From: an uncultured Prevotellaceae bacterium
Lineage (GTDB): Bacteria > Bacteroidota > Bacteroidia > Bacteroidales > Bacteroidaceae
DNA length: 64,000 bases
Assembly (NCBI GenBank): GCA_900315095.1
Contig: OMXS01000003.1
Coordinates: forward strand, 62,001-126,000
Direction of reading: 5' to 3'
A model generated the notes under the pieces. That model was not told where the DNA came from. It saw only the letters and a list, made by a program, of their open reading frames with translations, and searched no databases. Positions within the stretch are counted from its first letter, which is position 1. Every line of letters begins with the position of its first letter. The translations under genes were made by a program, and so were the position numbers. Shown here in pieces: positions 8,475 to 35,413 of this stretch.

Positions 8475-8718
8475 GGAGTCAACAAAGTCAACAAAGTCAA
8501 CAAAGTCAACAAAGTCAACAGTCAACAAAAGCCCTTTTCGGGATTCAGGATTTTATGTGTCTCATTCTTTATATTATATATATATTATAATATATATATA
8601 ATATAAAATATATATACATATATTTTTAATAACATCCACCACAGCCAGCTGTCTGTCACCGTGGAAATCTCAAAAACCCCTTTTGTTGACTGTTGACTTT
8701 GTTGACTTTGTTGACTCC
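8475..8718. repeat. Element A: inverted arms of 9-bp tandem repeats around an AT-rich palindromic core
   Basis: The left arm (8475-8531) is GGA followed by tandem GTCAACAAA units, ending GTCAACAGTCAACAAAAG. The right arm (8680-8718) is its exact reverse complement except that it has two fewer 9-bp units (39 against 57 bp). Between them lie a GC-containing shoulder and an AT core (about 8566-8628) of alternating TATA runs. The 614-bp gap between 8210 and 8823 holds only this element and the upstream promoter. The translated STKSTKST open frames here are artefacts of the repeat. Confidence 0.9.
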
Positions 8719-8823
8719 ATTAATGCCCTTTCGCATGATGAAAAACCATGTTTTAGAGGGCGAAAGATGGTCTGTTGGGGGGCGGAAAGCATATCTTTCT
8801 CAACGCTCTTGCTATGCTCTTGC

Positions 8824-9480
8824 TCAGAATGCGCGTAATGTGTCGTCTGAAACGGTGAAGTGGATGTCGCGGCCGAAGACAGGCATGCCATAGACTTTCT
8901 CGGGATTGTCCTGCACGCGCGGGCGGGGGTCGAGTTCAAGCACGCCGATGAGTGCCTGCTGCTGTTCTTCGGTAAGTTCTGCCTGTAGTTGTTCGCTGAG
9001 CTCCACGCGGAGTTTCTTCCATTCCGTTTGCTCCACGAAGCCAGAGCGGGCATCGGGCTTAGAGTCGCAATACTTGATATACGGCTTGATGTCGAGGATG
9101 GGCGTGCCGTCCATGAGATCGGCGCCGCTGACAGTTATTACAGGTCCGCGCTTGTCGTCTATCTCCACCTTATTTATATACACGCACGAGAGACCTATGG
9201 GGTTGGGGCGGAACGGAGAGCGTGTGGCAAACACTCCCAGCCGCTTGTTGCCTCCCAGTCGGGGAGGGCGCACGGTGAGGCTGTCGCCTATGGTCTTGTT
9301 GGCTGAGAACTCCCAGATAATCCACAGGTGACTGAAGTCCTCCAGCCCTCTCACGGCATCCGCGTTGCGGTATTTCGGTTCAAATACAATCTCCCCTGTC
9401 AGTTGCTCCACCAGTCCGCTTTGTCTCGGTATGCCGAACTTGCTGGTGAATGGAGAGTGGAAATATGCTATCGGCTTCAT
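8824..9480 (-). CDS. trmO: tRNA (N6-threonylcarbamoyladenosine(37)-N6)-methyltransferase TrmO (TsaA/YaeB family)
   Basis: 218 residues. The family methylates N6 of t6A37 in threonine tRNAs using S-adenosylmethionine. Recognisable signatures are IAYFHSPF at the N-terminus, FSHLWIIWEF, RPPRLGGNKRLGVFATRSPF, RPNPIGLS and LMDGTPILDIKPYI. These cover the YaeB-like beta-barrel domain (residues about 1-145); the C-terminal part (about 150-218) with LDPRPRVQDN is also typical. Length is normal for the family. It lies 10 bp downstream of the RAYT-like gene on the same strand, so the two may be co-transcribed. The 3' side faces repeat element A, which may act as its terminator. Confidence 0.92.
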   Translation of the reverse strand: MKPIAYFHSPFTSKFGIPRQSGLVEQLTGEIVFEPKYRNADAVRGLEDFSHLWIIWEFSANKTIGDSLTVRPPRLGGNKRLGVFATRSPFRPNPIGLSCVYINKVEIDDKRGPVITVSGADLMDGTPILDIKPYIKYCDSKPDARSGFVEQTEWKKLRVELSEQLQAELTEEQQQALIGVLELDPRPRVQDNPEKVYGMPVFGRDIHFTVSDDTLRAF

Positions 9481-9490
9481 GTTTTGAAGT

Positions 9491-10522
9491 TTAGAGATTT
9501 GTTATTTCTTTTGCCATTTGGTTCATTGCGAGGCATTTGTCACGCGTTATCAGCAGCCTCTCGTTGTGGTGCTCCCATGGTGCGAGGATGAGCAGTTTGC
9601 CCTGTGCGCATGCTTCAAAGAACTCTCCGCCGGGTCTTGTATAGGGTGTCAGTCCGTTCTCTTCGATAAAGATTAGCGGCAGACGGGCGTTCATGGCGGC
9701 TCTCATTACGGCTTTCTCGCCTTTTGAAATGGCTGGTGATACGAGTACAGCCCCTTTCTTTGCTTGTGAGAGAAAGTATTCCACGCGCTCGGTTATCTCT
9801 TCATCGCTGAGACATCTTGAGCATTGCACCTGTAATCTCACGGGGCGAGAGAGAAGAAACCTGTTGCCGAGTGCAGAGTAGGTGCGCCCTGCTATAGTCA
9901 TGCCGAAGCGCACATGGAAGAGGTCGGGGCTTTGGCGTTTCATCATCAGTCGGCGAGGGTTGTCAGCAAGATAGTCAATCCACCTCTGCAGTTCTCCTTT
10001 GCCAGAGAGTATGTGGTCGTTGTATCCAAGGCTCCATAGCATGCCGTGCTCCCTGTCGTCAAGGCTGCGGTCCCGTTTCTCCCCAGGTTTTCTTTGCAGC
10101 GACGGCGTCGCAGCATAGCCTAACTGGCGGTAGTGCTTGTTGGTGCTTGCCTTGAACCCCTTGATGATATGTCCCAGATGCTGCTGCATTTGCTCGTGTA
10201 CGAAGAGGATGCCATGCAGATGGTCGGGCATCATTTGCACGGCGATGCTCGAAACCTCGGGGTGGTGCTTGCTTACGTCAAGCCATTCGCGCTTCACAAC
10301 CTCTCCCAGTTCTGTGAGCACCACATGCGGAGCCTCCGGAGAGTCTTTCTCGGCATCTATTCTGCCTGCAAGGGTGCCGAACAAAGGGCGCCGTCCTTCC
10401 GTGGTGAGCGTCACGAGATATATGCTGCGCCCCTCATAGTCGTGCCCTACGCGTCTTCTTAGCATAGAAGGCTTCTTCTCTCCGGCATATTGCTTGTGCT
10501 TCTCGTATTCCTCTTTGTTCAT
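9491..10522 (-). CDS. REP-associated (Y1/IS200-like) transposase fused to a DprA/SLOG-like Rossmann domain
   Basis: 343 residues. Residues about 30-200 match the Y1-transposase fold of RAYT proteins: SIYLVTLTTEGRRPLFG, the HUH pair His101-Leu-His103 in MMPDHLHGILF, and LWSLGYNDHIL with Tyr167 as the likely nucleophile. The helix LQRWIDYLADNPRRL follows. Residues about 215-343 form a second domain with QVQCSR, KGAVLVSPAISKGEKAVMRAA, LPLIFIEENG and LLILAPW, like the Rossmann region of DprA/SLOG proteins. RAYTs cut and join short palindromic repeats (REPs) as single-stranded DNA. The extra domain is unusual and resembles the N-terminal part of the protein at 18239-19348. Its REP targets are unknown; short hairpins at 12358 and about 45.9 kb are candidates. 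Confidence 0.85.
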   Translation of the reverse strand: MNKEEYEKHKQYAGEKKPSMLRRRVGHDYEGRSIYLVTLTTEGRRPLFGTLAGRIDAEKDSPEAPHVVLTELGEVVKREWLDVSKHHPEVSSIAVQMMPDHLHGILFVHEQMQQHLGHIIKGFKASTNKHYRQLGYAATPSLQRKPGEKRDRSLDDREHGMLWSLGYNDHILSGKGELQRWIDYLADNPRRLMMKRQSPDLFHVRFGMTIAGRTYSALGNRFLLSRPVRLQVQCSRCLSDEEITERVEYFLSQAKKGAVLVSPAISKGEKAVMRAAMNARLPLIFIEENGLTPYTRPGGEFFEACAQGKLLILAPWEHHNERLLITRDKCLAMNQMAKEITNL

Positions 10523-10544
10523 TATATGTATGGCATTGCCATTG

Positions 10545-10552
10545 CAAAAATA
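10545..10552 (-). promoter_or_regulatory. Putative -7 element for the RAYT-like/trmO unit
   Basis: The minus strand reads TATTTTTG, matching TAnnTTTG, 23 bp before the start codon. No clear TTTG -33 box was seen. Confidence 0.4.
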
Positions 10553-10615
10553 AGGAAAATAATTGTAAAGGGTAATCTTTGCTCAAGAAAAATGTGTTTT
10601 GTGGAAATAAATTGC

Positions 10616-10623
10616 TATCTTTG
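10616..10623 (+). promoter_or_regulatory. Putative -7 element for rmuC
   Basis: TATCTTTG matches TAnnTTTG and lies 23 bp before the rmuC ATG. A purine-rich ACGGAG sits directly before the ATG. Confidence 0.5.
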
Positions 10624-10646
10624 CGCTGGTAAAACGAATTACGGAG

Positions 10647-12062
10647 ATGGAGATACTTTACATAATAATAGGACTTGTGGCAGGACTGCTGATAGGCATC
10701 TTCTACGGCAGGGGAAAGACGGGTGCCCTCGCCACCGAACTGAAGATGACTGCAGAGGAAAACTCGCGCCTGCATAAGGACTCGGAACAGACGGACGGCC
10801 TCAGGCAGAGGTTGATGTCGCTGACGGCAGAGCGCGACAGGCTGATAACCGAGGCAGACATGCTGCGCCAGCAGATGGACCAAGCAAAAGAGCAGATGCA
10901 GCAGATGACGCAGCAGTTCGAGGAACGCCACCGCGAGGCCATCGAAGGTCAGCAGGCACGTTTTGCCGAGGTGATAGATAAGGTGAAGGCCGAGATGAAG
11001 GCCGCCACCAACGACATGCTGAAGCAGCGCCAGCAGGAGTTTGCGGAGCAGAGCAACTCGAACATAGGACAGATAGTTGACCCGCTTCGCAAGACCATCG
11101 CCGACATGAAACAGGCGCTTAGCGAAAACACGATAAAGCAAGTCTCGATGAGCAGCGAGATGAAGACAAACATGGAGAACATGATGCGCCAGAGCGAGGA
11201 GGCTCGCCGCAGCACCGAGGAACTGACACGTGCCTTCCGCCATGAGACAAAGGTGCAGGGCGACTGGGGCGAGGCGGTGCTCGACGAACTGCTTGAGTCG
11301 CAAGGGCTGCGATGCGGAATACACTACGAGACGCAAGCCACCATCCGCGACGCCAAGGGAAACGTGATACATCCCGAGGACGGAGCGAGCCTGAGACCTG
11401 ACATCATAGTGCATCTCGACAAGAACCGCGAACTGATAATAGACTCTAAGGTGTCGCTGTCAAGTTTCATCGACTATGTGAACGCCGAAAACTCTGATGA
11501 AAGGCAGCGGTTCCTGAAGGCGCATATCGACAGCATCTGGCGGCATGTGAAGGAACTCTCAGACAAAGACTACTCGTCATACATCCAGCCACCGAAGGTG
11601 AAGATGGACTATGTCATAATGTTCATGCCGCACACAGGAGCGCTGTGGACGGCACTTAACGCGCAGCCCGACCTCTGGCGCAAGGCAATGGAGAAGAATG
11701 TCTTTATAGCCGACGAGCAAACGCTTTTTGCCGCACTTCGCATCATAAACCTCACATGGACGCAGATAGTGCAGGCAGAGAACCACGAGAAGGTGTACCG
11801 CTTGGCAGAGGAAATGCTCGACCGCGTGGGCAAGTTCGTGAAGAGTTATGAGGAAATGGGCAAGCAGATAGAGAGACTGCAAAAGGCATACGAGGACGGA
11901 GGAAAGAAACTGGCGCCCAGCGGACAGAGCATCATCACAACATCAATGAAACTGATGAAACTGGGAGCGAAGCAGAATGCCAAGAATCCGGTAATCGACA
12001 GCGAGGACGTGGAAACGGTTGGCAGTCTGCCCTCAGATGAAGAAAACGACGACGAAACATAA
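10647..12062 (+). CDS. rmuC: DNA recombination protein RmuC
   Basis: 471 residues. An N-terminal membrane anchor (MEILYIIIGLVAGLLIGI) is followed by a long coiled coil rich in Glu, Gln and Arg (about 25-190). The RmuC domain (about 200-410) then shows QGDWGEAVLDELLESQGL, RPDIIVHLDKNRELIIDSKVS and YVIMFMPHTGALWTAL. The family limits DNA inversions and rearrangements at inverted repeats in E. coli and has a nuclease-like core. That is notable here because the window is rich in inverted repeats, although rmuC is a widespread housekeeping gene. The large open frame on the opposite strand is a shadow. Confidence 0.93.
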   Translation: MEILYIIIGLVAGLLIGIFYGRGKTGALATELKMTAEENSRLHKDSEQTDGLRQRLMSLTAERDRLITEADMLRQQMDQAKEQMQQMTQQFEERHREAIEGQQARFAEVIDKVKAEMKAATNDMLKQRQQEFAEQSNSNIGQIVDPLRKTIADMKQALSENTIKQVSMSSEMKTNMENMMRQSEEARRSTEELTRAFRHETKVQGDWGEAVLDELLESQGLRCGIHYETQATIRDAKGNVIHPEDGASLRPDIIVHLDKNRELIIDSKVSLSSFIDYVNAENSDERQRFLKAHIDSIWRHVKELSDKDYSSYIQPPKVKMDYVIMFMPHTGALWTALNAQPDLWRKAMEKNVFIADEQTLFAALRIINLTWTQIVQAENHEKVYRLAEEMLDRVGKFVKSYEEMGKQIERLQKAYEDGGKKLAPSGQSIITTSMKLMKLGAKQNAKNPVIDSEDVETVGSLPSDEENDDET

Positions 12063-12075
12063 ACATCAAGACAAT

Positions 12076-12342
12076 ATGAAACAATCGACCTACGAAACAA
12101 CGGGAACATGCAGCAAGATTATCAACTTCGAGCTAGATGACGAACAGCGCGTGCACAACGTGGAGTTCATCGGCGGCTGCCCTGGAAATACCATCGGAGT
12201 GAGCCGTCTGGTGGAAGGAAAGAAGGCGCAGGAGGTTATCGACATGCTGCAAGGCGTGCGTTGCGGATATAAGAGCACCAGTTGTCCCGACCAGCTGGCT
12301 ACAGCACTTGCTAAAGCACTAAGCGAGCAGACAGCAGGCTGA
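12076..12342 (+). CDS. TSCPD domain protein (TIGR03905-like)
   Basis: 88 residues from the ATG at 12076, just after rmuC. Cysteines occur in TGTCSK, GGCPGN, GVRCGY and STSCPDQLA, the last being the TSCPD motif also found near the C-terminus of some ribonucleotide reductases. The small stand-alone family has no proven function; the four conserved cysteines suggest metal binding. The longer frame starting at 12019 would overlap the rmuC 3' end and is less likely. Co-transcription with rmuC is probable, with a 13-bp gap. Confidence 0.8.
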   Translation: MKQSTYETTGTCSKIINFELDDEQRVHNVEFIGGCPGNTIGVSRLVEGKKAQEVIDMLQGVRCGYKSTSCPDQLATALAKALSEQTAG

Positions 12343-12357
12343 GGCATATCTAGTATG

Positions 12358-12374
12358 CTGCGTTGCCAACGCAG
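12358..12374. repeat. REP-like hairpin, copy 1
   Basis: CTGCGTTGCCAACGCAG is an 8-bp stem with one unpaired base. It is nearly the same as the two copies near 45.9 and 46.0 kb (CTGCGATGCCATCGCAG), with a paired T/A to A/T change on both arms and the same TATG flank on the left. Confidence 0.65.
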
Positions 12375-12396
12375 ACTCTCTCCCTCTCTCATAATA

Positions 12397-12690
12397 ATGG
12401 CTTGGAAACTGAAATACCGCTGCACAAGTTGCGGTTACGAAGCAGAAACCTATGAGGGCAAAGGACTCTTCGGGCAGCATATTACTGCCGTCAGTTGCCC
12501 CGACTGTCACTCCATTCAGAACATCGTTGTGGGTGGGGTGATAGGCGATGTGGCGCCGTCGTTCCGCAGCGAGGTGGGGCGGTTGTGCCTGCATTGTGGC
12601 AGCGAGCGCATCAAGGTGTGGAACCACACCACCTGCCCGCGCTGTGGCGGCAAGATGCAAGAAGACGAGGAAAAGGAGTTTTGGACGTGA
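12397..12690 (+). CDS. Small zinc-ribbon-like protein
   Basis: 97 residues from the ATG at 12397 (MAWKLKYRC). Four CxxC pairs are visible: CTSC, CPDC, CLHC and CPRC, arranged as two probable zinc ribbons (residues about 9-40 and 66-85). The tail is acidic (QEDEEKEFWT). No catalytic motif was seen, so a nucleic-acid or protein-binding role is only a guess. The frame extends upstream to 12355, but that part reads through the REP-like hairpin and is unlikely to be translated. It follows the TSCPD gene on the same strand. Confidence 0.75.
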   Translation: MAWKLKYRCTSCGYEAETYEGKGLFGQHITAVSCPDCHSIQNIVVGGVIGDVAPSFRSEVGRLCLHCGSERIKVWNHTTCPRCGGKMQEDEEKEFWT

Positions 12691-12698
12691 TTTTATAA

Positions 12699-12855
12699 TG
12701 TAGAATGGGAAATGTAGAATGTAGAATGGGAAATGTAGAATGTAGAATGGAAAATGTAGAATTATGATTACATTTCAAGAACTGGCTCCAAGGCATGGTT
12801 CATAGTTCTAATCATAATTCTACATTTTCCATTTTCCATTCTACATTCTTCATTT
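12699..12855. repeat. Inverted array of AATGTAGAATGG-type tandem units between convergent genes
   Basis: The left arm (about 12699-12771) repeats AATGTAGAATGGGA-like units and ends TAGAATTATGATTA. The right arm (about 12811-12855) is the inverted form (TAATCATAATTCTACATTTTCC...). About 40 bp of unrelated sequence lie between. It sits between the convergent stops at 12690 and 12856 and could work as a bidirectional terminator. Confidence 0.75.
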
Positions 12856-14379
12856 TTAAGAGTAGCATTTCCATATATCGTCAACAACCGACTTTGGCAT
12901 CGGCTTGCTGAGAAGGCTGGCGATGAACACAACCACAAAACCGCCAACCATAGCGATGGCACCGCAGTTGATAGGTGATACGGGGTTGCCGGCAAGCATA
13001 TTGGCAACGGTGATTCCTACGCCCCACACAAAGCATGCCCACACGCTGAAGGTGGTGACGCGCTTCCAGTAAAGACCGAGCATGAAAGGTGCGAGGAACG
13101 CTCCTGCCAATGCTCCCCACGAGATGCCCATCAGCTGGGCGATGAACGTCGGGGGATTGAGCGCTATCATCAGCGAAATGACTATGAAGAACACTATTAG
13201 CACGCGCATCACAACAACCTTGCGGCGCTCCACACGCTCGGCTACCTCGTCGTCAATCTCGCCACCTTTCACCTCACCTTCCTCCGATTTCTTGTCACGG
13301 TAGATGAGGTCTAGTGTCATCGTGCTGCTCGATGTGAGCACCAGCGACGCAAGCGTTGACATAGATGCCGAGAGAACAAGCAACACCACAAGGGCTATGA
13401 GTATGTCGGGAAGTGTCTGAAGCATGCCTGGAACCACAGCGTCGAAGTCAAGACGGCCATTGGGAAGGGTAGGGGGTGTGCCGAACAAACGGCCGAAACC
13501 GCCAAGGAAGTAGCAACCGCCTGCCACCACAAGGGCGAAGATGGTTGAGATGATGGTGCCGCGACGTATGGCACTCTCGTCGGTGATGCTGTAGAACTTG
13601 CCCACCATCTGAGGCAGTCCCCATGTTCCGAGTGACGTGAGGATAACCACGCCCAGCAGATTCCATGGGTCGGGACCTAAGATGTCGGCAAAGGAGCCGT
13701 TCTGTGCAGGGTTGTTGTCGGCAGGCAGCGACGCCATCTGGTGGAACGCCTCCACAAGACCGCCCTTCTGTGCCAGCACGGCAGCAATGATAGTAACTAT
13801 GCCAAAGAGCATGATGACGCCCTGGATGAAGTCGTTCATCGCCGTAGCCTTATATCCTCCGAGAATGACATATACCGCTGTGAGTATCGCCATGATGATG
13901 ACACAATACTCATAAGGAATGCCGAAGCCCATCTCGAAGAGTGATGAGATGCCTTTATAGACGCCTGCGGTGTAAGGGATGAGGAACACAAAGGCGATGA
14001 TAGAGGCTGCCACGCGCAGTCCCTGAGAACTGAAACGGGTGCCGAAGAAGTCGGGCATGGTGCGGCTCTGTATGTGCTGTGTCATCATCTTCGTGCGTTT
14101 GCCCAGCACCAGCCAAGCCAAGAGCGAGCCGATGACAGCGTTGCCCACACCTATCCAGGTGCTTGACATACCGTATTTCCAGCCGAACTGTCCGGCATAA
14201 CCAACGAAGACCACGGCCGAGAAATAACTTGTGCCGTAAGCAAAGGCGGTGAGCCACGGACCAACAGAACGTCCTCCAAGAACAAAACCATCAACACTCG
14301 ATGCCTGCTTGCGTGAATACAGTCCCACGCCAACCATCACGGCAAGGAAAACTATAGTAAGAAAAATCTTTATAAACAT
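12856..14379 (-). CDS. Sodium:solute symporter (SSS/SLC5 family)
   Basis: 507 residues with about 13 hydrophobic segments. Family features are the N-terminal VGLYSRKQASSVDGFVLGGRS, TAFAYGTSYFSAVVFVGYAG, and VYVILGGYKATAMNDFIQG in the middle, plus a hydrophilic loop (about 355-385) before the last helices. The substrate cannot be read from sequence; family members carry sugars, amino acids, nucleosides or carboxylates. The gene lies 30 bp downstream of the porin-like gene on the same strand, so the two probably form an outer-membrane/inner-membrane uptake pair. The 3' end runs into the inverted repeat array. Confidence 0.88.
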   Translation of the reverse strand: MFIKIFLTIVFLAVMVGVGLYSRKQASSVDGFVLGGRSVGPWLTAFAYGTSYFSAVVFVGYAGQFGWKYGMSSTWIGVGNAVIGSLLAWLVLGKRTKMMTQHIQSRTMPDFFGTRFSSQGLRVAASIIAFVFLIPYTAGVYKGISSLFEMGFGIPYEYCVIIMAILTAVYVILGGYKATAMNDFIQGVIMLFGIVTIIAAVLAQKGGLVEAFHQMASLPADNNPAQNGSFADILGPDPWNLLGVVILTSLGTWGLPQMVGKFYSITDESAIRRGTIISTIFALVVAGGCYFLGGFGRLFGTPPTLPNGRLDFDAVVPGMLQTLPDILIALVVLLVLSASMSTLASLVLTSSSTMTLDLIYRDKKSEEGEVKGGEIDDEVAERVERRKVVVMRVLIVFFIVISLMIALNPPTFIAQLMGISWGALAGAFLAPFMLGLYWKRVTTFSVWACFVWGVGITVANMLAGNPVSPINCGAIAMVGGFVVVFIASLLSKPMPKSVVDDIWKCYS

Positions 14380-17419: not shown

Positions 17420-17691
17420 CTCATTTTGAATGAATCTTGATATTATTTCGTTATGTAATGTGCCGTTTGACTGCAAATACCCTTCCATAATGATTTAGGT
17501 GCGTTGTTTTCCGAATCCCCCATTTTCTTATAAGTAGAGAAAAACATCGGAAAATGCAGTTCCTGCATCCTTTTTGATGCCTTTGAGGGAAGAATTTTGA
17601 TGTCTTTTGAGAAAATAAAACCATGCTGCTGACGGTATGATATGTCATATTTGTTTGATAATCAGCCTTTTAGAGGATATTGTCTATGCAG

Positions 17692-17852
17692 GTGTTTCAG
17701 CGTTTCAGCGTTTCAGTAGGGGGTATGCAATGTTTCAATACCATTATTATAATATATAATATATAATATATTGATTATTAGATAGTTATCTATATTATAG
17801 ATGAAACTGACACCCCCTCTTTACTACTGAAACGCTGAAACGTTGAAACGCT
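17692..17852. repeat. Element B: inverted arms of 8-bp CGTTTCAG repeats around an AT-rich core
   Basis: The left arm (17692-17719) is three GTTTCAG-containing units ending in TAG. The right arm (17824-17852) is its reverse complement with a single difference in one unit. Each arm is followed inward by a run of five Gs (on the arm strand), and the centre (about 17743-17800) is AT-only sequence with short palindromes. The remaining sequence from 17420 to 17691 shows no convincing gene. Confidence 0.9.
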
Positions 17853-17965
17853 CGGATACTTATTCTTCCTCTACAGGTATCTTCTTGCACTCTCACAAGG
17901 TACAAGTGACGATGCCAGAAGGCATCTATGGTGTTGCCACTTACAAGAGTTAAGACTGCATTATG

Positions 17966-18113
17966 ACATATAACCGTCATCTACTTATAAAAAATAAGCC
18001 CCAGAAGGCGGAACTTCCGGGGCTTTAGTGTATACATCTTCAAGATGCTTTATTCGTAATACTCAATTTTACGAGTCTGTTCTATTTCCTGACCCATCAT
18101 CGAGCTCTCGCGG
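17966..18113. repeat. Left 148-bp direct repeat bounding the defence island
   Basis: It aligns without gaps to 26747-26894 with about eight mismatches by eye. The repeat contains a terminator and the last 20-odd codons of the secreted-protein gene at 26831. Confidence 0.9.
17996..18026 (-). terminator. Terminator inside the left direct repeat
   Basis: It has the AAGCCCC...GGGGCTT stem of the right copy (26777-26806), with mismatches in the middle. Confidence 0.7.
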
Positions 18114-19556: not shown

Positions 19557-20609
19557 CTATGATTTAATCTTCCATCTTGTATTACTTGCAACTCCAACAG
19601 ATTCTATTTTATTAGAATCCTGCAATTGTTTAAGATGTTTATTTATTGTAGCTTTTGAGAATCCTAACAATTTTGCAATATCATACAATGAAAGGCAAGA
19701 ATTAGGTGTTAGAACATTTATTATCTTTTCGTCTATACTCCCTGATAATGTGTTAGTTCGTTCTTCGGTTTTTGCAACCGTACCTTTTGTGATGTTATCA
19801 ACAAAAGTCACTCGTTGCCTACTCCATGTATTCAATCTACCCTCCAACTCATGATAGTAATCGGTCAATTCTTTATATAACTTATCAAGAGCAGTATGGT
19901 CTGTTAGCTTTTCAGCTTGCTTTGTATCACACAACCATCCAATTTCTTTAAAAGTAGTGTTGGGCAGTAAATAATATCTAACATTATTATTGTTAGTCCA
20001 TACAGCCCCCATCTCATTAAGGCATATTTCACTATTCTTATAATTGTTGGAAATCAGTAAGAAAGAGAAGTCTGCCGACAAGATATTCTCTTTTATATGC
20101 TTCCGAATATCATCCCCATTCTTGATATTCATGTCTTCAATGGAAGTGCAAAAAATATCATCAGGATCAAGACCTATTCCTAATTGAAGTATCCTGTCAC
20201 AAAATTCAGTAACGATACCTTTGTCTTTTGAAGAATGACTGATAAATATTTTGTGTCCATTTTGTGGTTTATTTGAATATAGTCCATCTAAAATCTTGAT
20301 TGCAGTTCTAATATCCCCAAAAGAATAGGCATTTATGAAGTCACCAAATATATTTTGAAAATATGGAGGTTGTGGAATCTGCAAAATACGAGAAGTACGA
20401 AATACTATCCTTTGAGTTGCATTCATTAGAATTTGGGCAATATCTGGATAGTCTTCTTTTATTATTGGAATTATTTGTTTGGAGATCTCTACAAGTTTTT
20501 GAGTTCTTGGCCCTATAATTGAATCATAATTAATATCTATTCCATTCAGCAAAGTTCTTGCCGAAGTTATTAGATCTCTTAGCTGACTATTATTCTTCAT
20601 TATTATCAA
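19557..20609 (-). CDS. TIR domain protein with C-terminal winged helix
   Basis: 350 residues; the start could also be nine bases in. An N-terminal helical region (1-115) is followed by a TIR domain (about 119-235): HKIFISHSSKDKGIVTEF, DDIFCTSIEDMNIKNGDD and SEICLNEMGAVW, where Glu199 is the candidate catalytic residue of NAD-cleaving TIRs. The C-terminus (about 290-350) is a winged HTH: LSLYDIAKLLGFSKATINKHLKQL. TIR effectors in bacteria usually deplete NAD+ on infection. It lies 24 bp downstream of the specificity gene on the same strand, so it is probably expressed with the restriction enzyme. What it senses is unknown. Confidence 0.82.
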   Translation of the reverse strand: MIIMKNNSQLRDLITSARTLLNGIDINYDSIIGPRTQKLVEISKQIIPIIKEDYPDIAQILMNATQRIVFRTSRILQIPQPPYFQNIFGDFINAYSFGDIRTAIKILDGLYSNKPQNGHKIFISHSSKDKGIVTEFCDRILQLGIGLDPDDIFCTSIEDMNIKNGDDIRKHIKENILSADFSFLLISNNYKNSEICLNEMGAVWTNNNNVRYYLLPNTTFKEIGWLCDTKQAEKLTDHTALDKLYKELTDYYHELEGRLNTWSRQRVTFVDNITKGTVAKTEERTNTLSGSIDEKIINVLTPNSCLSLYDIAKLLGFSKATINKHLKQLQDSNKIESVGVASNTRWKIKS

Positions 20610-20633
20610 AATATATTATTCCACTTTATCCTA

Positions 20634-21203
20634 CTATTTCAAATATTTATCAAGAATGACTTGCTTACGAAGATCACAACCAGCCATTATATCCTTTGCA
20701 TCTGCAATTAACTCATCATAGTGCAATATTTCATTTGCAATTCGTCTTTGTTCTTCCATATTAGGTAAGATAATACGATATTGGATAATGCCGTCTTTAT
20801 TACCACGTGGCATTTTTACACCTCTCGTTCCTGCTTCGTTCATAATAAAATCAAAGAACACGTCGCGACGCAAACTGTAATACAAAAAACGTTCATCTAC
20901 TTTTTCACTATCGGGTCGAAGCACGAGTACATCAGGAGAACAACTTCCATCACGATCTGCCTGCCAAATCTTTTTCAAATAGGGACGGATGTTTGAAAGA
21001 AGAATGTCACCTTTCTGATAGGCTATGGCAGAGTTGGTACTGTCCGTTCCGTCGTATGGACGGATGCCCTCACAATTTTGCAACATATTATCGGTTGTGA
21101 TGTACGATTCCATATCAATTTCGTTTGTTCTATATGTTACATATTTGCATATGTCGTTGATAATCACAAAATTACCCCCCCCCCCCATTTCGTCTTGATA
21201 CAA
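20634..21203 (-). CDS. Second target-recognition domain (HsdS half), out of frame with the upstream enzyme
   Basis: 189 residues if read from the TTG at 21203; an ATG directly before the G tract (21188) gives a shorter form. The content is one target-recognition domain plus coiled-coil spacer of a type I-like specificity subunit: NFVIINDICKYVTY, GDILLSNIRPYLKKIWQA, SPDVLVLRP, FLYYSLRRD and LPNMEEQRRIANEI. The real relation is with the upstream gene: both share the 12-G tract. Deleting one G or adding two would fuse the frames into one chain of about 1,235 residues with two recognition domains. In the present allele it may be silent or translated by re-initiation. Confidence 0.8.
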   Translation of the reverse strand: MYQDEMGGGGNFVIINDICKYVTYRTNEIDMESYITTDNMLQNCEGIRPYDGTDSTNSAIAYQKGDILLSNIRPYLKKIWQADRDGSCSPDVLVLRPDSEKVDERFLYYSLRRDVFFDFIMNEAGTRGVKMPRGNKDGIIQYRIILPNMEEQRRIANEILHYDELIADAKDIMAGCDLRKQVILDKYLK

Positions 21204-24200
21204 CTTCGAGTCTATCGAATATCTCAGCTATCTTTTCCCGATACGTTTCAATGCTCATGCGGCTGGTATTATATTCTTCATCTATTTGTTTACATTCTGA
21301 AACAACAATATCTTGTATGTCTTTAGGTGGTATGGGAAGTTGAACGGCTGCTATTCTCTCTGTTGAAGCACGATAAGAACGAGAGAAGCCATAGTGCTTT
21401 CCTACTTCTTCAAGAGCCAATGCCACAAAATATGGGTCAATATCTGAATCCAAAACCCTTATTACACCACAATGGTCTGTAGGATAAAATGCAATATCTT
21501 TATCAAGATATGCAACCATCCAATCTCCATCAATTCCCCATAATATAGACGGCTTGTCAAAATCATCAAAGAGTAAATGGTCAATAAACCCAAATTCTGC
21601 TTTAACATTTGCACTATATACAGGATAAATACCTTTCTCTTCTATGTCAGAGGAAAGAACACGACGCCCAATTCTTAATTCAAACTTGTTGGGGTCATTA
21701 AGTCGTTGAAGCGGATACTTACTATTTATCTTGTCTTCAATTTTTGCGGTCAAAGTAATAGACTTATAAAAGCACGAAAGAGGAAAATCTAACATGTCTT
21801 TCAGCCAATAACCTTTGACATGTTTTGCTATATCGTCCGACATTCCTAATATAGAGGCTCCACAGAAAGAGTTTCTTACTGCACATGCCAAAGTTCCTCT
21901 TGCGAAACGATCTTCAGCATTATAGAGTTTGCCTCCGGGTTGTTTTATTTTAATACCCTCTTGTCCCTTCCTATTACTCCACTCATAGCCAAGGAAGTCC
22001 TTTTGGTCTTTGTTGTCAGAAGGAGCCGTTATGACAAGGGTCTGTTGCTGATAGACAAGGGAGAAGTAATATAGTTTCTCCTTTTCAATTGCCAAAGCCC
22101 ATGAATAGAACCTTGTCCGGCGAATCTGTGCTTTCTCTTCTTCTGTGCATTTCTTTGGATATTTAATGCCGTCAAATTGAAATGCTTCGGCATAGCCTTT
22201 CAAATAGGAATCTGACATCACATCTTCTTTTGCTAACTCCTGACGCAAGAAAGAAAGGTATGTCTCTTTCTCTGTTTTTTGATGAGCAATGTAGGCATCC
22301 AATACCTGTGCATCTTCCCAATCAGTATCACCACAAATGGTCAAGATGCCATTCACAGTGTCTTTTGCCAGTTCTGCAAAACGTGGTGGTTCATTATACC
22401 TTTCAAGGAACAAAGTAACCGTGTTGGTTCCAGTTGCTCCAAATGTCTGACTGCCAAAAGCCACGATAGCCCGAATCTGGAAGTTTTGCAATAGGTTTTC
22501 ACGGGCAGCAATGCCACTTGATGATGTATCGTTAAGGATAGAGGAAGGCAGCACGACTGCCGCTATGCCTTTCGGTTTTAGAAGTTGTGCTATACGTTCC
22601 ACAAAGAGCATTTCAATTTCATCGCCATCCGTACTCACTTTATCTATTATAGAGAAAGTATTATTTTTGAGTTTTAGGTGTTGCTTAAAGCCTTTCACTG
22701 CATACGGAGGATTAGCAACGAGAATGTCGAACGAAGCTGGTATAATGCCCTTTTCTGGATAATTCTCCAAACCGTCACCAAAAATAATGTTACTACCTCC
22801 AGCGCCATTCATAAACATAGAGATTTTGGAAACACGAGCCAGTCTATAGTCTTTCTCTATGCCATAAATGTGTTTTTCTACCCAAGTGTTATCACCATCA
22901 GGACGTACCGCATTGATAGCCTCTACTCCTTCTGTCAAGAAATGACCAGCACCACAAGCATAGTCAATTACACGTGGTAAGTCGTGCTCATTTATGTAGT
23001 TCTGGAGAGGTAATGAATCCCATATAAAGCGTGTTATAGGAGTAGGTGTGAAGAACTGTCCTTCGTTCTGCTTGAAACCTTTGTTAAGCAGTTGCTCAAA
23101 CAAATCGCCTAGGAACTGGTGTTTACTTGGATAAACGATGCGGTAAGGCTGAAACAGCTGCACCACCTCTACAAGTATTTTGCCGTTCTGATAGAAAAGT
23201 TCCTCATTATGTACATCCTTGAAAGCAAAATCATTGTTTGTGTAGAACTTCAAAATTCGAAGCGTCTGCTTCAACTCTTCTATTGCAGCCTTTCGCTGAC
23301 TTCCTTTGTATTGTCGGAACAGATTGTCGGCATAATCAGCAGGCACATAGATCACCTTCTCCTTCATAAACTCCTCCATACCCTGCTGGTGAAGATGTTG
23401 AAGACGATCTTGAAGGCTTTCGTATGTATCTTGTCCCTGCTTATACTGGAAATCAACTACATCAAAGTCCTGTTTCTTAATTTCGTCCACCAGTTTGCAA
23501 ATAAAAAGAGCTACCAGACGATTGAAGGCATTTTCTTTATCGCTCACGTTGTTATGACGAAGAATTTCCTCAAACCGATTAACGATGCGGTCTTCTGGAG
23601 TGAAATCTTTTAGTTTCTTCTTCCTTAAAGGTGGAATGCCTATATTGTATGCTTGACTTTCCTCATTAAATACCACATCATCAAGCCATTGCTTTTGATA
23701 TGTTTCTTCCCATACTTCAAAACGTTCCTTATCATTGCGAGCATTGAGATAAATTTTAACGTCTTTGTCCTTTTCTGCCATTTTTGTAATGTTGGCATCA
23801 TCCGTACAGTTGATAACAAGGCACTTGTACAATAATCTGTCATCGTTCCAGTCGGAAGCATAAAGAGCAAGCCAGCGGGTGGATATTTCTTGTTGCCAAT
23901 AGCTGAACAGCTGGCCGCCATCCTCTTCTGTGTTCTTCTTTTCTTTGTTGAACTTCTCTCCTGCTGTTTTGCATTCTATTATTAGAAGGGATTTATTATC
24001 GCTGTCTTTAATAAGAATATCTGCTTTACCACCGCTTGGATCGTGTCCTAAAGTCCATCGAGGCTCCAATTCTATATGCTCAGGTCTATATCCCTTTTCT
24101 AATAAACGACAAACACATTCCAATACCACGAAATTCTCGTTTTTATCGAAATTGCTTGTAGTTTTATCATTCACGATTAGCCCTTTATCTTCTGGATAAA

Positions 24201-24330
24201 TGATTTTCTTGTTGTCAAAATCTACTGCAACAGTACAAGTGCTATACTCTCGCTTAAAGTATTCGCCCATTGACTCACGAATGAACCCAATATGATTTAG
24301 GACTTCTTTTAAATTATCTAATTGTATCAT
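21172..24330 (-). CDS. Single-chain restriction-methyltransferase-specificity enzyme (type IIG/type I-like RM)
   Basis: 1,052 residues. The N-terminus carries a nuclease site of the type I R-subunit style: Asp104 in GGKADILI and Glu119-Cys-Lys121 in LLIIECK. The middle is an N6-adenine methyltransferase: QFFTPTPITRFIWD, SAM motif IDYACGAGHFL at about 455 and catalytic NPPY at about 542. Residues about 860-1045 are a first target-recognition domain (RIGRRVLSSDIEEKGIYPVYS, WMVAYLDKDIAFY) followed by a spacer helix. The chain ends at the G tract. Nuclease, methylase and recognition in one chain explain the lack of separate hsdR. It lies 6 bp after the XRE regulator. Truncated and fused forms probably recognise different DNA sites, as described for the NgoAV system. 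Confidence 0.88.
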   Translation of the reverse strand: MIQLDNLKEVLNHIGFIRESMGEYFKREYSTCTVAVDFDNKKIIYPEDKGLIVNDKTTSNFDKNENFVVLECVCRLLEKGYRPEHIELEPRWTLGHDPSGGKADILIKDSDNKSLLIIECKTAGEKFNKEKKNTEEDGGQLFSYWQQEISTRWLALYASDWNDDRLLYKCLVINCTDDANITKMAEKDKDVKIYLNARNDKERFEVWEETYQKQWLDDVVFNEESQAYNIGIPPLRKKKLKDFTPEDRIVNRFEEILRHNNVSDKENAFNRLVALFICKLVDEIKKQDFDVVDFQYKQGQDTYESLQDRLQHLHQQGMEEFMKEKVIYVPADYADNLFRQYKGSQRKAAIEELKQTLRILKFYTNNDFAFKDVHNEELFYQNGKILVEVVQLFQPYRIVYPSKHQFLGDLFEQLLNKGFKQNEGQFFTPTPITRFIWDSLPLQNYINEHDLPRVIDYACGAGHFLTEGVEAINAVRPDGDNTWVEKHIYGIEKDYRLARVSKISMFMNGAGGSNIIFGDGLENYPEKGIIPASFDILVANPPYAVKGFKQHLKLKNNTFSIIDKVSTDGDEIEMLFVERIAQLLKPKGIAAVVLPSSILNDTSSSGIAARENLLQNFQIRAIVAFGSQTFGATGTNTVTLFLERYNEPPRFAELAKDTVNGILTICGDTDWEDAQVLDAYIAHQKTEKETYLSFLRQELAKEDVMSDSYLKGYAEAFQFDGIKYPKKCTEEEKAQIRRTRFYSWALAIEKEKLYYFSLVYQQQTLVITAPSDNKDQKDFLGYEWSNRKGQEGIKIKQPGGKLYNAEDRFARGTLACAVRNSFCGASILGMSDDIAKHVKGYWLKDMLDFPLSCFYKSITLTAKIEDKINSKYPLQRLNDPNKFELRIGRRVLSSDIEEKGIYPVYSANVKAEFGFIDHLLFDDFDKPSILWGIDGDWMVAYLDKDIAFYPTDHCGVIRVLDSDIDPYFVALALEEVGKHYGFSRSYRASTERIAAVQLPIPPKDIQDIVVSECKQIDEEYNTSRMSIETYREKIAEIFDRLEVVSRRNGGGG
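21175..21186 (-). repeat. Homopolymeric 12-G tract, predicted phase-variation switch
   Basis: Twelve Gs on the coding strand lie between the first and second recognition domains. With 12 Gs the upstream enzyme ends RRNGGGG-stop. With 11 or 14 it reads on in frame into the second domain, and with 13 it stops four codons later. Confidence 0.9.
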
Positions 24331-26746: not shown

Positions 26747-26894
26747 ACATATAACCTTCATCTACTTATAACAAATAAGCCCCGGAAGTCGGAACTTCCG
26801 GGGCTTTAGTGTATACATCTTCAAGATGCTTTATTCGTAATACTCAATTTTACGAGTCTGCTCCATTTCCTGACCCATCATTGAGCTCTTGCGG
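26747..26894. repeat. Right 148-bp direct repeat bounding the defence island
   Basis: Partner of 17966-18113. It is part of the intact locus: the last codons and the terminator of the gene at 26831. Confidence 0.9.
26777..26806 (-). terminator. Terminator of the 26831 gene
   Basis: AAGCCCCGGAAG-TCGGAA-CTTCCGGGGCTT is a perfect 12-bp stem placed just after the stop. Confidence 0.8.
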
Positions 26895-28443: not shown

Positions 28444-28470
28444 GAAAACAACTAATAGCATACACTAACT

Positions 28471-30050: not shown

Positions 30051-30059
30051 ATAACTACT

Positions 30060-30491: not shown

Positions 30492-30508
30492 CGCTGTCTT
30501 TCTTTTTC
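30474..30508 (+). terminator. Terminator of the five-gene operon
   Basis: AAAGACAGCG-ATGAGTAA-CGCTGTCTTT is followed by TCTTTTT. The left arm overlaps the last codons of the lipoprotein gene. Confidence 0.85.
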
Positions 30509-30565
30509 TGCAAATTTGGTAGATTATTCCGTAATTCATTTAACGCCTTTTCTGGTTATTTTCAA

Positions 30566-30573
30566 TATCTTTG
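30566..30573 (+). promoter_or_regulatory. -7 element of the cyclophilin-like/hydrolase operon
   Basis: TATCTTTG lies 53 bp before the ATG at 30627. No clear -33 box was found. Confidence 0.45.
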
Positions 30574-30626
30574 CACCCAGAAAGGATTATATTGTTTGTT
30601 GATATGGTTAATTGAAATGTGTAATT

Positions 30627-31226: not shown

Positions 31227-32338
31227 AGAAGCTAGTGTTATCGCTCATGTTCGTAGCGGGAGTGCTTACAGCATGCAATAAGGAAAACAATAAAAACGAA
31301 GAAGATATGACAAAGTTGGAATTAACACAGGAGTGGGACAAGGTGTTCCCGCTGAGTGACAAGGTGAACCACCAGAAGGTGACTTTTGAAACGCAGTACG
31401 GACTGATTTTAGCAGCTGACCTTTATACCCCGAAGGATGCTCAAGGTAAGATGGCGGCTCTGGCCGTCTCTGGTCCTTTTGGAGCTACCAAGGAGCAGTC
31501 GAGTGGCCTCTATGCCATGCGTATGGCAGAACGAGGCTTCGTGGCACTTGCCTTCGACCCCTCATTTACAGGTGAGAGTAGCGGCGAACCGCGCCGCACG
31601 GCTTCGCCCGACATAAACACAGAGGACTTTATGGCTGCTGTCGACTTTCTCTCAGGATTGGAGAATGTGGATGCTGAGAAGATTGGCATCATCGGCATCT
31701 GCGGATGGGGAGGCATCGCACTCAATGCTGCCGCTGCCGATACCCGCATCAAGGCTACCGTTGCCTCCACGATGTATGATATGACCCGCGTCAGCGGTAA
31801 TGGTTATTTCGACAGCGAGGACAAGGAGGAATCGCGTCATGCTGCCCGAGAGGCAATGGCCAAGCAGCGTCTGGCTGATCCGATGGCTATGGCTGGCGGT
31901 GTTGTTGACCCTCTGCCTGCCGATGCTCCGCAGTTCGTGAAGGACTATTACGACTACTACAAGACCGAACGCGGTTATCATAAACGCAGCGGTAACTCTA
32001 ACGACGGATGGCGTGCAATAGGTACTCAGGCATATACCAATGCCCGTTTCCTTTACTACACCAACGAGATTCGCTCTGCCGTTCTTGTGATGCACGGAGA
32101 GAAAGCCCATTCGCGCTACTTCGGTGAGGATGCCTATAAATATATGGTGGAGGGCAAGCCGGCAGCGGGCATCAAACCCAATCCCGTTCCTGAGAACAAG
32201 CAGTTGCTCATAATCCCAGGTGCCTCCCATTGCGACCTCTACGATGGCGGTTACACAGAGCTTGTGGGCAAGGGAGAACCTAAGAATCTCATTCCTTGGG
32301 ATACTCTTGCTGAGTTCTTCACGAAGTACCTGAAGTAA
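31223..32338 (+). CDS. Lipoprotein alpha/beta hydrolase with a Cys nucleophile motif (dienelactone-hydrolase-like)
   Basis: 371 residues. The lipobox is in GVLTACNKE. The hydrolase domain has the elbow GICGWGGIAL, where Cys replaces the usual Ser (Gly-x-Cys-x-Gly), as in dienelactone hydrolases. An acid lies near VLVMHGEKAHSRY and the His is in IPGASHCDLYDGG. The natural substrate is unknown; the relation to YcjY/peptidase-S9-like esterases is clear from DLYTPKD and AFDPSFTGESSG. It is translationally coupled to the cyclophilin-like lipoprotein. Confidence 0.8.
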   Translation: MKKLVLSLMFVAGVLTACNKENNKNEEDMTKLELTQEWDKVFPLSDKVNHQKVTFETQYGLILAADLYTPKDAQGKMAALAVSGPFGATKEQSSGLYAMRMAERGFVALAFDPSFTGESSGEPRRTASPDINTEDFMAAVDFLSGLENVDAEKIGIIGICGWGGIALNAAAADTRIKATVASTMYDMTRVSGNGYFDSEDKEESRHAAREAMAKQRLADPMAMAGGVVDPLPADAPQFVKDYYDYYKTERGYHKRSGNSNDGWRAIGTQAYTNARFLYYTNEIRSAVLVMHGEKAHSRYFGEDAYKYMVEGKPAAGIKPNPVPENKQLLIIPGASHCDLYDGGYTELVGKGEPKNLIPWDTLAEFFTKYLK

Positions 32339-32361
32339 TATCTCTGCGGACTTTAAGGACT

Positions 32362-32396
32362 AATAGGATAATCTTCGGATTATCCTATTTCTTTTT
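32362..32396 (+). terminator. Terminator after the hydrolase lipoprotein
   Basis: AATAGGATAATC-TTCG-GATTATCCTATT followed by TCTTTTT. The preceding CGGACTTTAAGGACT is repeated before the terminator after the GH3 gene. Confidence 0.9.
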
Positions 32397-32485
32397 AATT
32401 ATAATAAATGAACGATTATTTCTTTTCTGCCCATTTCATAGTTTATAAAAAAACAAACAATAGCCTATAGAAGAAAAATATTTTG

Positions 32486-32493
32486 TATCTTTG
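32486..32493 (+). promoter_or_regulatory. -7 element of the GH3 gene
   Basis: TATCTTTG lies 41 bp before the ATG. The -33 box is unclear. Confidence 0.45.
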
Positions 32494-32534
32494 CAACGAG
32501 AAAACTAAAAAATACTAACCTAACATAGAATAAC

Positions 32535-35015
32535 ATGAAAAAGTTTTTTGTAGTCGTTATGACGTTTGTCACGGTCACAGCACAGGCACAGAGAATTCAG
32601 AAACCTGCTATACCTCGTGACGCGGGCATTGAGGCGAAGGTGGAGAAGACTCTTTCGAGGATGACTCTCGACGAGAAAATAGGGCAGATGCTCGAACTGA
32701 ACTTCGACCTTATGGGCAAGATGACTGTAGAGAATGCCAAGGTCGACCGCGGGAAAGTGCACTCGGTAATGCAGCAGTATGGCGCTCCCGAAAATGAAAT
32801 CGAGACTGTGATGAATATGACAGACGCTCAGATAATAGAGCGGTTCGGCAACTATCCCGTGGATATTTACAAAGGGGATACACATCGAACGTGGAAACTC
32901 AACGAGATGATGCTCGACACACTCATCTCAAAATGGAAGGTGGGGTCTATTCTTAACGCACCAGGCACACGCGCAGCAACGGTGGAGCAATGGAGGCAAT
33001 GGATAGGAAAGATACAGGAAAAGTCGATGAAACACCTCGGCATTCCTGACGTCTATGGTCTCGACCACAATCACGGTGTGACTTACAGTCAGGGAGGCAC
33101 GCTATTCCCGCAGCCTATAAACCTCGCTGCGTCGTTCAACACCACTCTCGCACGCGAGATGGCTGAGGTGGCGGCATACGAGAGCCGCGCGGGAAACTGT
33201 CCGTGGGTGTATAACCCTGTGATCGACCTTGGTCGTGACCAGCGCTGGTCGCGTATATGGGAGAGTTTCGGTGAAGATGCTATCGTTAACTCGCATATGG
33301 TGGAGGCAGAGATAGCTGGATATCAGGGCAGCGACCCCAACCATCTGGGCAAGTATAACGTGGCAACGAGTGTGAAGCACTACTTCGCTTATGGTGCTCC
33401 GTTCTCAGGCAAGGACCGCACCCCGGCATACATCTCGCCAGCCATGTTGCGCGAGAAGTATTTCGAGCCTTTCAAGGCGGCTATTCAGGCTGGGGCGCTA
33501 ACCATCATGGTTAACTCGGCGAGCATCAACGGCGTTCCTGTGCATGCCAGCTATGAATACCTTACCAAGTGGCTCAAGGAAGACTTGCAATGGGACGGCA
33601 TGATAGTGACCGACTGGGCAGACATCAATAACCTCTTCACCCGAGAGAAGGTGGCAAAGGATAAGAAAGATGCCATTCGCATCGCAATAAATGCAGGCAT
33701 AGACATGTCGATGGACCCATATAGTGTGGAGTTCTGCATCCTTCTAAAAGAACTGGTGCAGGAAGGCAAGGTACCTATGGAGCGCATCGATGATGCCGTG
33801 CGTCGCATATTGCGACTGAAATATCGTCTGGGACTCTTCGACCAGCCTAACACAGGAGGTAAGGGTTATGAGAAATATGGTAGCGACGAGTTCGCACAGA
33901 AGGCTCTCCATGCGGCAGAGGAGGCAATGGTACTCCTTAAGAACGAAGGCAATATCTTGCCTCTCGCTTCGTCTCAGAAAAAGATACTCCTCACAGGTCC
34001 TAACGCTAACCAGATGCGCTGTCTTAACGGAGGATGGAGCTACACCTGGCAAGGCTCGGGTGCTGAGGACCTCGCTGAGAAGTACAACACCATCTATGAG
34101 GCGCTGTGCAATAAGTTCGGCAAGGAGAACATCACGCTGGAGCAGGGCGTGACATACAACGAACGAGGGGCTTACTACGATGAGAACGAGCCGCAGATAG
34201 AACGAGCTGTGAGTGCTGCAGCTGATGCCGATGTCATCGTGGCATGTATCGGAGAGAACAGTTACTGCGAGACACCAGGCAACCTCACCGACCTGTGGCT
34301 CTCTGCCAACCAGCGTAACCTTGTCAAGGCACTTGCACAGACGGGTAAGCCAATAGTGCTGGTTCTCAATGGCGGACGCCCGCGACTCATAGCCGACATC
34401 GAGCCGTTGGCAAAGGCGGTGGTTGACATCTTCCTTCCAGGAAACTATGGCGGCGATGCGTTGGCAAACCTGCTTGCAGGCGACGTCAACTTCTCTGCGA
34501 AGATGCCATATACCTATCCTCGAGAGATTAATTCTCTGCACACTTACGACTATAAGGTGAGTGAGGAGGTTGGCACGATGGCAGGAGCATATAACTACGA
34601 TGCCAAGGTGTCGCTTCAATGGCCTTTCGGATATGGCATAAGCTACACCACATACGAGTACTCTAATCTGCGGGTGGATAAGAAAACGTTTACTGCTGAC
34701 GATGTGCTCACCGTAACTGTTGACGTTCGCAACACGGGCAGCAGGGCAGGAAAGGAACCTGTGCTTCTCTATAGCAGCGACCTCGTGGCATCCCTCGTGC
34801 CTGACAACCGCCGTCTGCGTGATTTCACAAAGGTGGAACTGCAGCCTGGAGAGACAAAGACGGTAACGTTCCGTCTGCCTGCCAAGTCTCTCGCCTTTGT
34901 AGGCGCTGACGGCAAATGGATTCTCGAGGAGGGTGATTTCAACTTGAAAGTGGGCAACCAAACCATAGGCATCGAGTGCAGCGAGACAAAGAAATGGGAG
35001 GAACCTAACATCTGA
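32535..35015 (+). CDS. Glycoside hydrolase family 3 beta-glucosidase-like enzyme
   Basis: 826 residues with a signal peptide ([19 protein letters not shown]), so periplasmic or secreted. The N-terminal barrel has [41 protein letters not shown] and the nucleophile Asp (about 360) in [10 protein letters not shown]. The second domain follows with [16 protein letters not shown] and [21 protein letters not shown]-terminal FnIII-like domain (about 710-820) ends the chain. GH3 enzymes release terminal glucose or xylose from oligosaccharides. With the GH9 at 43.3 kb and the hybrid regulator between them, use of beta-glucan or cello-oligosaccharides is likely. Confidence 0.93.
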
Positions 35016-35046
35016 TTCCTCTCTCCCCATACGGACTTTAAATACT

Positions 35047-35083
35047 AATAGGATAATCTGCAACGGGTTATCCTATTTTCTTT
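35047..35083 (+). terminator. Terminator of the GH3 gene
   Basis: AATAGGATAATC pairs with GGTTATCCTATT around a short loop, followed by TTCTTT. It is a near copy of the terminator at 32362. Confidence 0.85.
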
Positions 35084-35102
35084 GGGAACCATATACTATT
35101 TG

Positions 35103-35252
35103 ACCTTTACGGTATTAGTGGGTTGCTCTTGGATTCGCCCTAACTTCAAGCCTATAAAGACAGGAAAGGGCTTCGACGTGGTGCGCTATGCGATGGCCGT
35201 GAGCAACGAACTCCTTTGGGCACTCGATGGCTTGGTAGAGAAGAGTGAGTGA
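35103..35252 (+). pseudogene. Gene fragment, C-terminal remnant of an unrecognised protein
   Basis: An open frame of about 49 codons without a start reads VGCSWIRPNFKPIKTGKGF and ends VSNELLWALDGLVEKSE before TGA at 35250. Codon use looks coding, but nothing upstream continues the frame past the terminator. I do not recognise the family. Confidence 0.45.
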
Positions 35253-35259
35253 ACAATCC

Positions 35260-35413
35260 AAATCTGACAGCTGACAGTCTGACAATTTAAAAAAAAGGTA
35301 ACACCCCTTTCTAAAGACTATATAACTAATTGATATATAGATAATTATATATAAATATAAGGGAGGCGATACCCTTAAAAAAACAACTGTCAGAACTGTC
35401 AGCTGTCAGATTT
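35260..35413. repeat. Element C: inverted arms of CTGACAG repeats around an AT-rich core
   Basis: The left arm (35260-35284) reads AAATCTGACAGCTGACAG plus TCTGACA. The right arm (35388-35413) is its reverse complement with one extra base. Inside are an A-run, a C-rich shoulder (GGTAACACCCC and, inverted, GGGTATCGCCTCCC) and an AT core (about 35313-35360) with TTGATATATAGATAATTAT. That core resembles element B's TTGATTATTAGATAGTTAT. Confidence 0.9.

Follow-up and report, generated by a model that had tools for sequence, protein, structure and literature searches.

Ubeda et al. have reportedly worked on the replication origin of SaPI. According to the relevant sections of one source, SaPI initiator helicases recognise an iteron origin through their C-terminal domain and appear to bind it as two hexamers, and the C-terminal domain of Cch2 from SCC elements binds three 5-bp iterons, AAGTG (PMC7581432). 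The same sections place the short iterons that form the SaPI (PICI) origin beside the gene of the self-loading helicase and describe a primase gene carried by the element (PMC7581432). For the PLE satellite of Vibrio cholerae, passages of a further report describe an iteron origin bound by the satellite's own initiator, RepA_N (PMC7145576). Here we analyse 64,000 nucleotides (the window) of an uncultured Prevotellaceae bacterium (assembly GCA_900315095.1, contig OMXS01000003.1, positions 62,001 to 126,000), in which the original prediction, made from the letters alone, had recognised three elements, A, B and C, with inverted arms of short tandem units around an AT-rich core. All three were found as described, at 8475-8718, 17692-17852 and 35260-35413. 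The prediction named no class with such an architecture, but the iteron origins of SaPI- and SCC-type elements provide a comparable one. From sequence comparison, we consider it probable that B and C are orphan replication origins of a three-gene module, X-Y-Z, and that protein Y reads the iterons of both arms through one helix.

A blast search with B found its core at 13 additional places in the genome (E < 1e-3). Alignment of 17 copies, B and C among them, showed that the homology passes beyond both arms to a total of roughly 400-600 bp; the B and C cores are homologous, as predicted, and belong to one dispersed family, while the limits first given hold for A but were too small for B and C (Table 1). 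C is 68.6 % identical to C41:29584-30249 over 672 columns and 89 % identical to C13:205272-205542 over 274 (contigs are denoted C and loci L). The copy at the end of contig C13 is flanked on one side by the end of an open reading frame (ORF), X, and on the other by a 394-codon ORF, Y, followed by a primase gene, Z. Because this copy runs into X on one side and into Y and Z on the other, B and C appear to be truncated copies of the X-Y junction, i.e., orphan copies of the region between the two genes from which nearly all of X and Y has been lost. The C13 Y is itself shortened by ~35 N-terminal codons, the codons next to the right arm corresponding to residue ~36 in intact homologues. No second long Y of this type was found in this genome (G000); a distant paralogue (23 %) is on C30. 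At least three iterons are present in both arms of 13 of the 17 copies, one being the C13 locus with Y, and the remaining four have 2+3 or 3+2. Truncated copies have themselves been duplicated (L002/L004, 92 %; L020/L021, 87 %).

Such arrangements are rare by chance. Across 1,114,423 bases of the same genome (8 of its 58 contigs) we counted 80 inverted-arm clusters (at least 13 bp exact, gap 40-220, AT-only matches left out) against 2 in a control consisting of one local first-order Markov sequence, although some of the 80 overlap one another and a few lie inside genes. The clusters sort into several families, with B and C in one and A in another. Three T-N-N-C-A pentamers and, 60-160 bp away, three inverted ones of the same class occur opposite each other at 13 places in the same bases, a count made without a shuffled control.

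In intact relatives the arms and AT-rich core lie between the small gene X and gene Y, which are co-directional, and the primase gene Z follows Y. A Y-like protein (E <= 1e-30) was present in 121 of 300 genomes drawn from the genus, a figure that includes longer paralogues of ~30-35 % identity; 70 of the matches listed, counted by eye, reach 42 % identity or more. When 395 genomes were drawn from the phylum, only the genome itself and one other of the same family gave a match at E <= 1e-60. Our loci comprise 30 from the genus search and 80, out of 197 confirmed relatives, from named genomes, many of which duplicate genomes of the genus draw; 82 loci have a unique Y. The named genomes are mostly rumen and gut metagenome-assembled genomes of Prevotellaceae or Bacteroidaceae, Segatella copri and a few others, and Prevotella is a genus common in gut and rumen. 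Clustering of genes in the 80 loci placed Y in 75, Z in 70 and X in 54 (plus eight in a cluster resembling X on the other strand), with HU-like proteins in 22 and DUF4248 in 14.

Residues 17-374 of Y are predicted to adopt an MCM-like AAA+ fold at ~10 % identity to MCM. Pfam searches of 26 Y members at E <= 1 returned no MCM model, and two members matched DUF3987 (PF13148) weakly (best E 0.0021). The Y profile had a single weak match among PDB sequences, a cAMP-dependent kinase subunit, and none that was credible; the best 50 structural matches listed for Y are without SaPI Rep or SCC Cch structures, which excludes nothing. Z carries the CHC2 zinc finger of DnaG and is a CHC2/DnaG-like primase, and X matched no known family in Pfam, NCBIfam or PHROGs. 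None of the X, Y, HU and DUF4248 proteins tried matched a defence model, and Z matched DnaG-domain models only; upstream of X, five of ten chosen genes, several picked for that look, match restriction or SNF2 defence-type models (PADLOC or Pfam). No paper on the X-Y-Z family was seen among those listed in literature searches.

The module thus has parts comparable to those of SaPI and SCC origins, arranged symmetrically. As in SaPI, iteron arrays and an AT-rich region lie next to the initiator gene. However, the SaPI origin is placed downstream of rep and its primase is of the AEP type, whereas here the arrays lie upstream of Y, between X and Y, and the primase is CHC2/DnaG-like. A further difference is that the 25 gene clusters recurring most often within 9 kb of the 80 loci, assessed by their sequence starts and by eight Pfam scans, showed no recurrent integrase family, and that Y lacks a credible sequence match to any solved structure. 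SCCmec Cch/Cch2 shares an initiator helicase whose C-terminal domain binds three 5-bp iterons, but one array is reported for it, in contrast to the two inverted arrays around an AT core whose read-out varies by locus here. The PLE also places its own initiator on iterons (PMC7145576), although RepA_N is not a predicted helicase or primase. MCM helicases share the predicted AAA+ fold and a predicted C-terminal winged helix, but at the low identity given above, and here in a bacterial module with a primase.

Inverted arms lie between X and Y in most loci. Their unit is the pentamer T-N-N-C-A, typically three per arm and directed at the core, with a spacing of 6-9 bp in 300 of 308 intervals. In 100 of 110 loci the two arms could be given a common NN class (CT 40, TC 29, CA 13, TA 8, TT 4, AA 3, GA 2, AT 1). 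The ten loci dropped comprise three of insufficient length and seven for which no common class was found, namely L150 and L158, with C/A/G-TTCA arms, L155 and L223, with an insertion, L138 and L202, without the region, and L188, with one arm. Six classes occur among the copies of the window's own genome; C has the class of the C13 Y copy and B a different one. A few loci of the AA class are mixed, with two TAACA and one TTACA in each arm, as would be expected of a class switch in progress. The 40-base core has a median AT content of 90 % in 82 relatives, and a core motif is kept within 7/28 mismatches in 75 of them, compared with none of 82 random AT-rich strings. The predicted picture of dispersed non-coding elements, related through a conserved core and with arms that vary in concert, is supported.

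Among 86 loci with three iterons per arm, the spacing pattern is equal in both arms in only 18. The arms are thus not simple copies of each other, and the element common to them is the binding site. This bears on the original suggestion that one arm is copied onto the other, and on foldback transposons (FB, Galileo), which are mobile and have inverted arms of short tandem units. For a foldback-type element the arms would form a stem, hairpin-templated repair would copy arm to arm, and slippage would alter the unit. The arms do match over 25 and 29 bp in two loci, in element A and the TTGCA family described below the arms sit at the ends of mobile units or close to them, and spacer identity is higher within a locus (71 %, 98 positions) than between loci that share class and spacing (60 %, 1191), so arm copying may make a minor contribution to B and C. 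However, unequal spacing led us to reject hairpin repair as the main cause for B and C, their unit is predicted by a protein helix encoded ~1.2 kb away, and their arms are internal and tied to a helicase, with conserved sequence running on outside them. No transposase was noticed in the recurrent-gene clustering, which was not a search aimed at transposases. A foldback origin of B and C is accordingly very unlikely. The related idea of a mobile element that acquires arms at its target is half right: copies at unrelated sites speak for a mobile component, but the conserved flanks, and the position of the arms between X and Y in intact modules, speak against acquisition. The likelihood that the copies are transcription terminators or structured RNAs at gene ends is slighter still: several do sit directly after stop codons, but the only Rfam match at gathering score in the window is one tRNA, the intact-module region separates two co-directional genes, and unequal spacing together with the protein code point to recognition at the DNA level.

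If one protein reads all iterons, some of its residues should follow NN. When all usable columns were ranked by mutual information, Y columns 409 and 405 came first, above the best X and Z columns, and after dereplication at 90 % they kept ranks 1 and 2, with 412 at rank 4. Comparing 44 disjoint closest different-class pairs with 44 same-class pairs put 409, 412 and 405 at ranks 1, 2 and 3, though the pairs are not matched in identity (means of 0.75 and 0.83, respectively). When classes were shuffled inside 80 % identity clusters, all three columns exceeded every one of 500 shuffles. Across unique loci, column 409 is K with C (23/25), V with T (37/43), Q with A (6/6), and small residues or I with A (8/8), and column 405 is H with C (42/43). 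The leading whole-class columns lie at the end of the gene far from the arms, which argues against linkage as the cause.

Prediction rules were then fixed before 33 further loci were fetched, which are 33 of the 40 remaining listed matches at least 42 % identical (by eye), the other seven being partial; one, L309, lies inside a region seen earlier (L267). In the 27 loci with at least two iterons per arm, 23 predictions were right and 4 wrong, i.e., 20/24 right after dereplication at 90 % and 16/19 at 80 %. The nearest overall Y, used as predictor, was right in 16 of 27; the helix was right in 9 of the 11 loci where the nearest Y failed and wrong in 2 of the 16 where it succeeded. Shuffled predictions gave a mean of 6.7 matches and a maximum of 16 in 100,000. 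As for the remaining six loci, L334 and L340 have one clear iteron in one arm and both agree, L335-L337 have CTTCA arms without T-N-N-C-A, and one locus has no upstream sequence. L335-L337 are deep-branch Y loci in which the first iteron T is replaced by C and the helix reads K-V-A. A viral-contig locus found later fits the rule, by eye. Covariation and hold-out, which are statistical rather than biochemical evidence, place iteron specificity in the C-terminal domain of Y. Some pairs of loci share at least 85 % identity over arms and Y, ending around them (L162/L166, 89.7 %, 8768 to 10293), as expected if origin and initiator had been exchanged together.

We propose the following mechanism. 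Y would bind all iterons through one helix of a predicted C-terminal winged-helix domain, so that any change in its specificity would require a matching change of every iteron in both arms. Y may load as two opposed rings on the inverted arrays and melt the AT core, after which Z could prime synthesis.

Several points weigh against this mechanism, in addition to the unmatched identities of the pair contrast. For the first variable letter alone, column 405 is only fourth: columns 5, 92 and 77, all in the N-terminal half, rank above it, perhaps because of lineage or of linkage to the arms close by. The pair contrast for X was small (9 and 12 pairs) and gave its best columns values of 0.61, so X may have a role in recognition. 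The code has exceptions, L200 in the training set and L315, L319, L323 and L326 in the hold-out; L200 and L323 combine a helix of one class with arms of another and are perhaps recombinants. L150, L158 and L335-L337 depart from the pentamer itself. The winged helix is a prediction from the secondary structure of a whole-protein model, and Y binding, core melting and replication are inferred. Free replication is supported neither by the integrase result above nor by phage and plasmid collections, in which Y had no match, and the one relative in viral contigs does not establish it.

The main rival is that the arms would serve as operators, Y (or X) acting on them to repress or activate the X-Y-Z operon, with the AT core as promoter DNA and no replication start. 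The arms indeed lie directly upstream of Y, the Y-iteron code shows an association with recognition and not with replication, and no free replicon carrying Y was found. However, inverted arrays around a core of ~90 % AT, an MCM-like helicase and an adjoining primase fit an origin better, and orphan copies without the operon keep both arms. We regard a purely regulatory function as rather unlikely, and the operator and origin functions can coexist.

The prediction of one family joining all three elements holds for B and C; for A, no homology of its core to theirs was found and no remnant of X or Y was seen. A has a 96 % copy at C41:57854-58093, and a homologue of its inner sequence lies between other arms at C32:84909-85084; the inner sequence thus recurs with different units, TCAACA and TCATCA. 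A-like matches occur in 15 of 300 genus genomes, its own included, many of them short AT-core matches, and no initiator was found, with nine A-like loci read and none of their neighbouring genes tested. From resemblance, A is probably a replication origin belonging to another family, which is a guess. A further, related family consists of origins alone and has TTGCA units; G000 contains three copies, 96 % identical, and two other genomes contain relatives at 97, 89 and 87 %.

Further inverted arrays were observed in passing. A fourth heptamer element, at 12697-12856 of the window, has AATGTAG/AATGGAG arms around the core TTATGATTAC...GTAATCATAA and belongs to a further family, with nine copies listed and the core in both orientations. 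Two more inverted tandem-unit families, GTTGAGCG and GGAGTTAAG, occur at C13:34687, 88370 and 92655, C26:38501 and 198359, C32:7145 and 41695, and C24:77140 (within L056-L114). Arms of the GGTCACAGCTGTGACC type form several tandem copies at C13:81612-82001, C26:231995-232383 and C30:173457-174010, the last cluster ~1.6 kb upstream of the distant DUF3987-like ORF. L011 and L240, from two species, have similar cellulase-like genes, and the origin-like elements that come after these genes belong to two different families.

A second type of module accompanies the longer VirE/DUF3987-type paralogues (~30-35 % identical to Y). No arms lie directly before the gene in 16 regions; however, L273 and L280 have inverted TGACA arms around an AT core two genes upstream of the DUF3987-like gene, and the paralogues were dropped as a negative control since arms lie upstream of their operon. 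The first gene of this module (231 aa, two genes before the DUF3987-like protein) was found in 14 of 250 genomes. Among 17 loci examined, of which L280 is one, inverted arms of at least 9 bp lie upstream of the first gene in 14 and are absent from L343, L346 and L357; the module type was noted for L273, L280 and L342-L356. The units are mostly TGACA or TCACA, and 13 of the 14 pairs of arms enclose 30 bases of at least 90 % AT.

Table 1 Features of elements A, B and C in the window
Feature	Position	Strand	Basis
Element A, arms at its ends, TCANCA-type units (six left: 8479, 8488, 8497, 8506, 8515, 8522; four right: 8684, 8691, 8700, 8709), AT core ~8569-8623	8475..8718		sequence scan, copy comparison
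Element B full extent, reverse orientation, putative orphan copy	17475..17886	-	blastn to C13:123519-123951 and C41:76043-76466, alignment
B iteron array, 3 x TTTCA (17695, 17703, 17711; one further inner copy at 17733)	17695..17715	+	unit scan
B AT-rich core	17745..17801		sequence, homologous cores
B inverted iteron array, 3 x TTTCA (17828, 17836, 17844; one further inner copy at 17802)	17828..17848	-	unit scan
Element C full extent, putative orphan copy of X-origin-Y junction	35084..35666	+	matches to C41 and C13
Probable remnant of gene X 3' end (SNELLWALDGLVEKSE)	35084..35252	+	tblastn to X end at C13; ORF 35082-35252
C left iteron array, 3 x TGACA (35265, 35272, 35280)	35265..35284	+	unit scan; the Y locus at C13 has the same class
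C AT-rich core (proposed unwinding element)	35310..35365		sequence, homologous cores
C right iteron array, 3 x TGACA inverted (35388, 35397, 35404)	35388..35408	-	unit scan
Probable remnant of gene Y 5' end	35449..35666	+	match at C26:97519-97716, 50 % identity, 1 stop; alignment

Elsewhere in the window, the region beside B (19557-24330) encodes a TIR-domain protein with a winged helix-turn-helix and an N6-methylase fused to a specificity domain, and resembles a defence island. A 148-bp repeat at 17966-18113 and 26747-26894 is 95 % identical between its two copies and 83 % identical to one in another genome. Degenerate heptamer arrays lie mostly between genes at 47199-47282, 49387-49512 and 50644-50763, where a scan for inverted partners gave none, and a 73-bp tandem duplication with 94 % matches at 45875-46018 overlaps the end of ORF 43279-45900.

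Arms that change together appear to reflect a protein-DNA recognition code with more than 80 natural training examples, which passed a hold-out, and bacterial gene modules gain a family of putative MCM-like initiators paired with inverted iteron arrays. This makes testable both a multi-site change of origin specificity and the action of dispersed orphan origins in their host. In a broader and decidedly speculative view, which we hold to be possible rather than likely, Prevotella chromosomes would carry a dispersed family of replicons with MCM-like initiators, in which residue 404 reads the first and residue 408 the second variable base (L130 numbering) and each of repeated switches in specificity shifts six or more iterons at once. 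Copies reduced to an origin (B, C, A and the TTGCA family) would then be satellites, moved or replicated in trans, and the arrival of a cognate element might cause helicases to be loaded at the dispersed orphan origins of the host chromosome.

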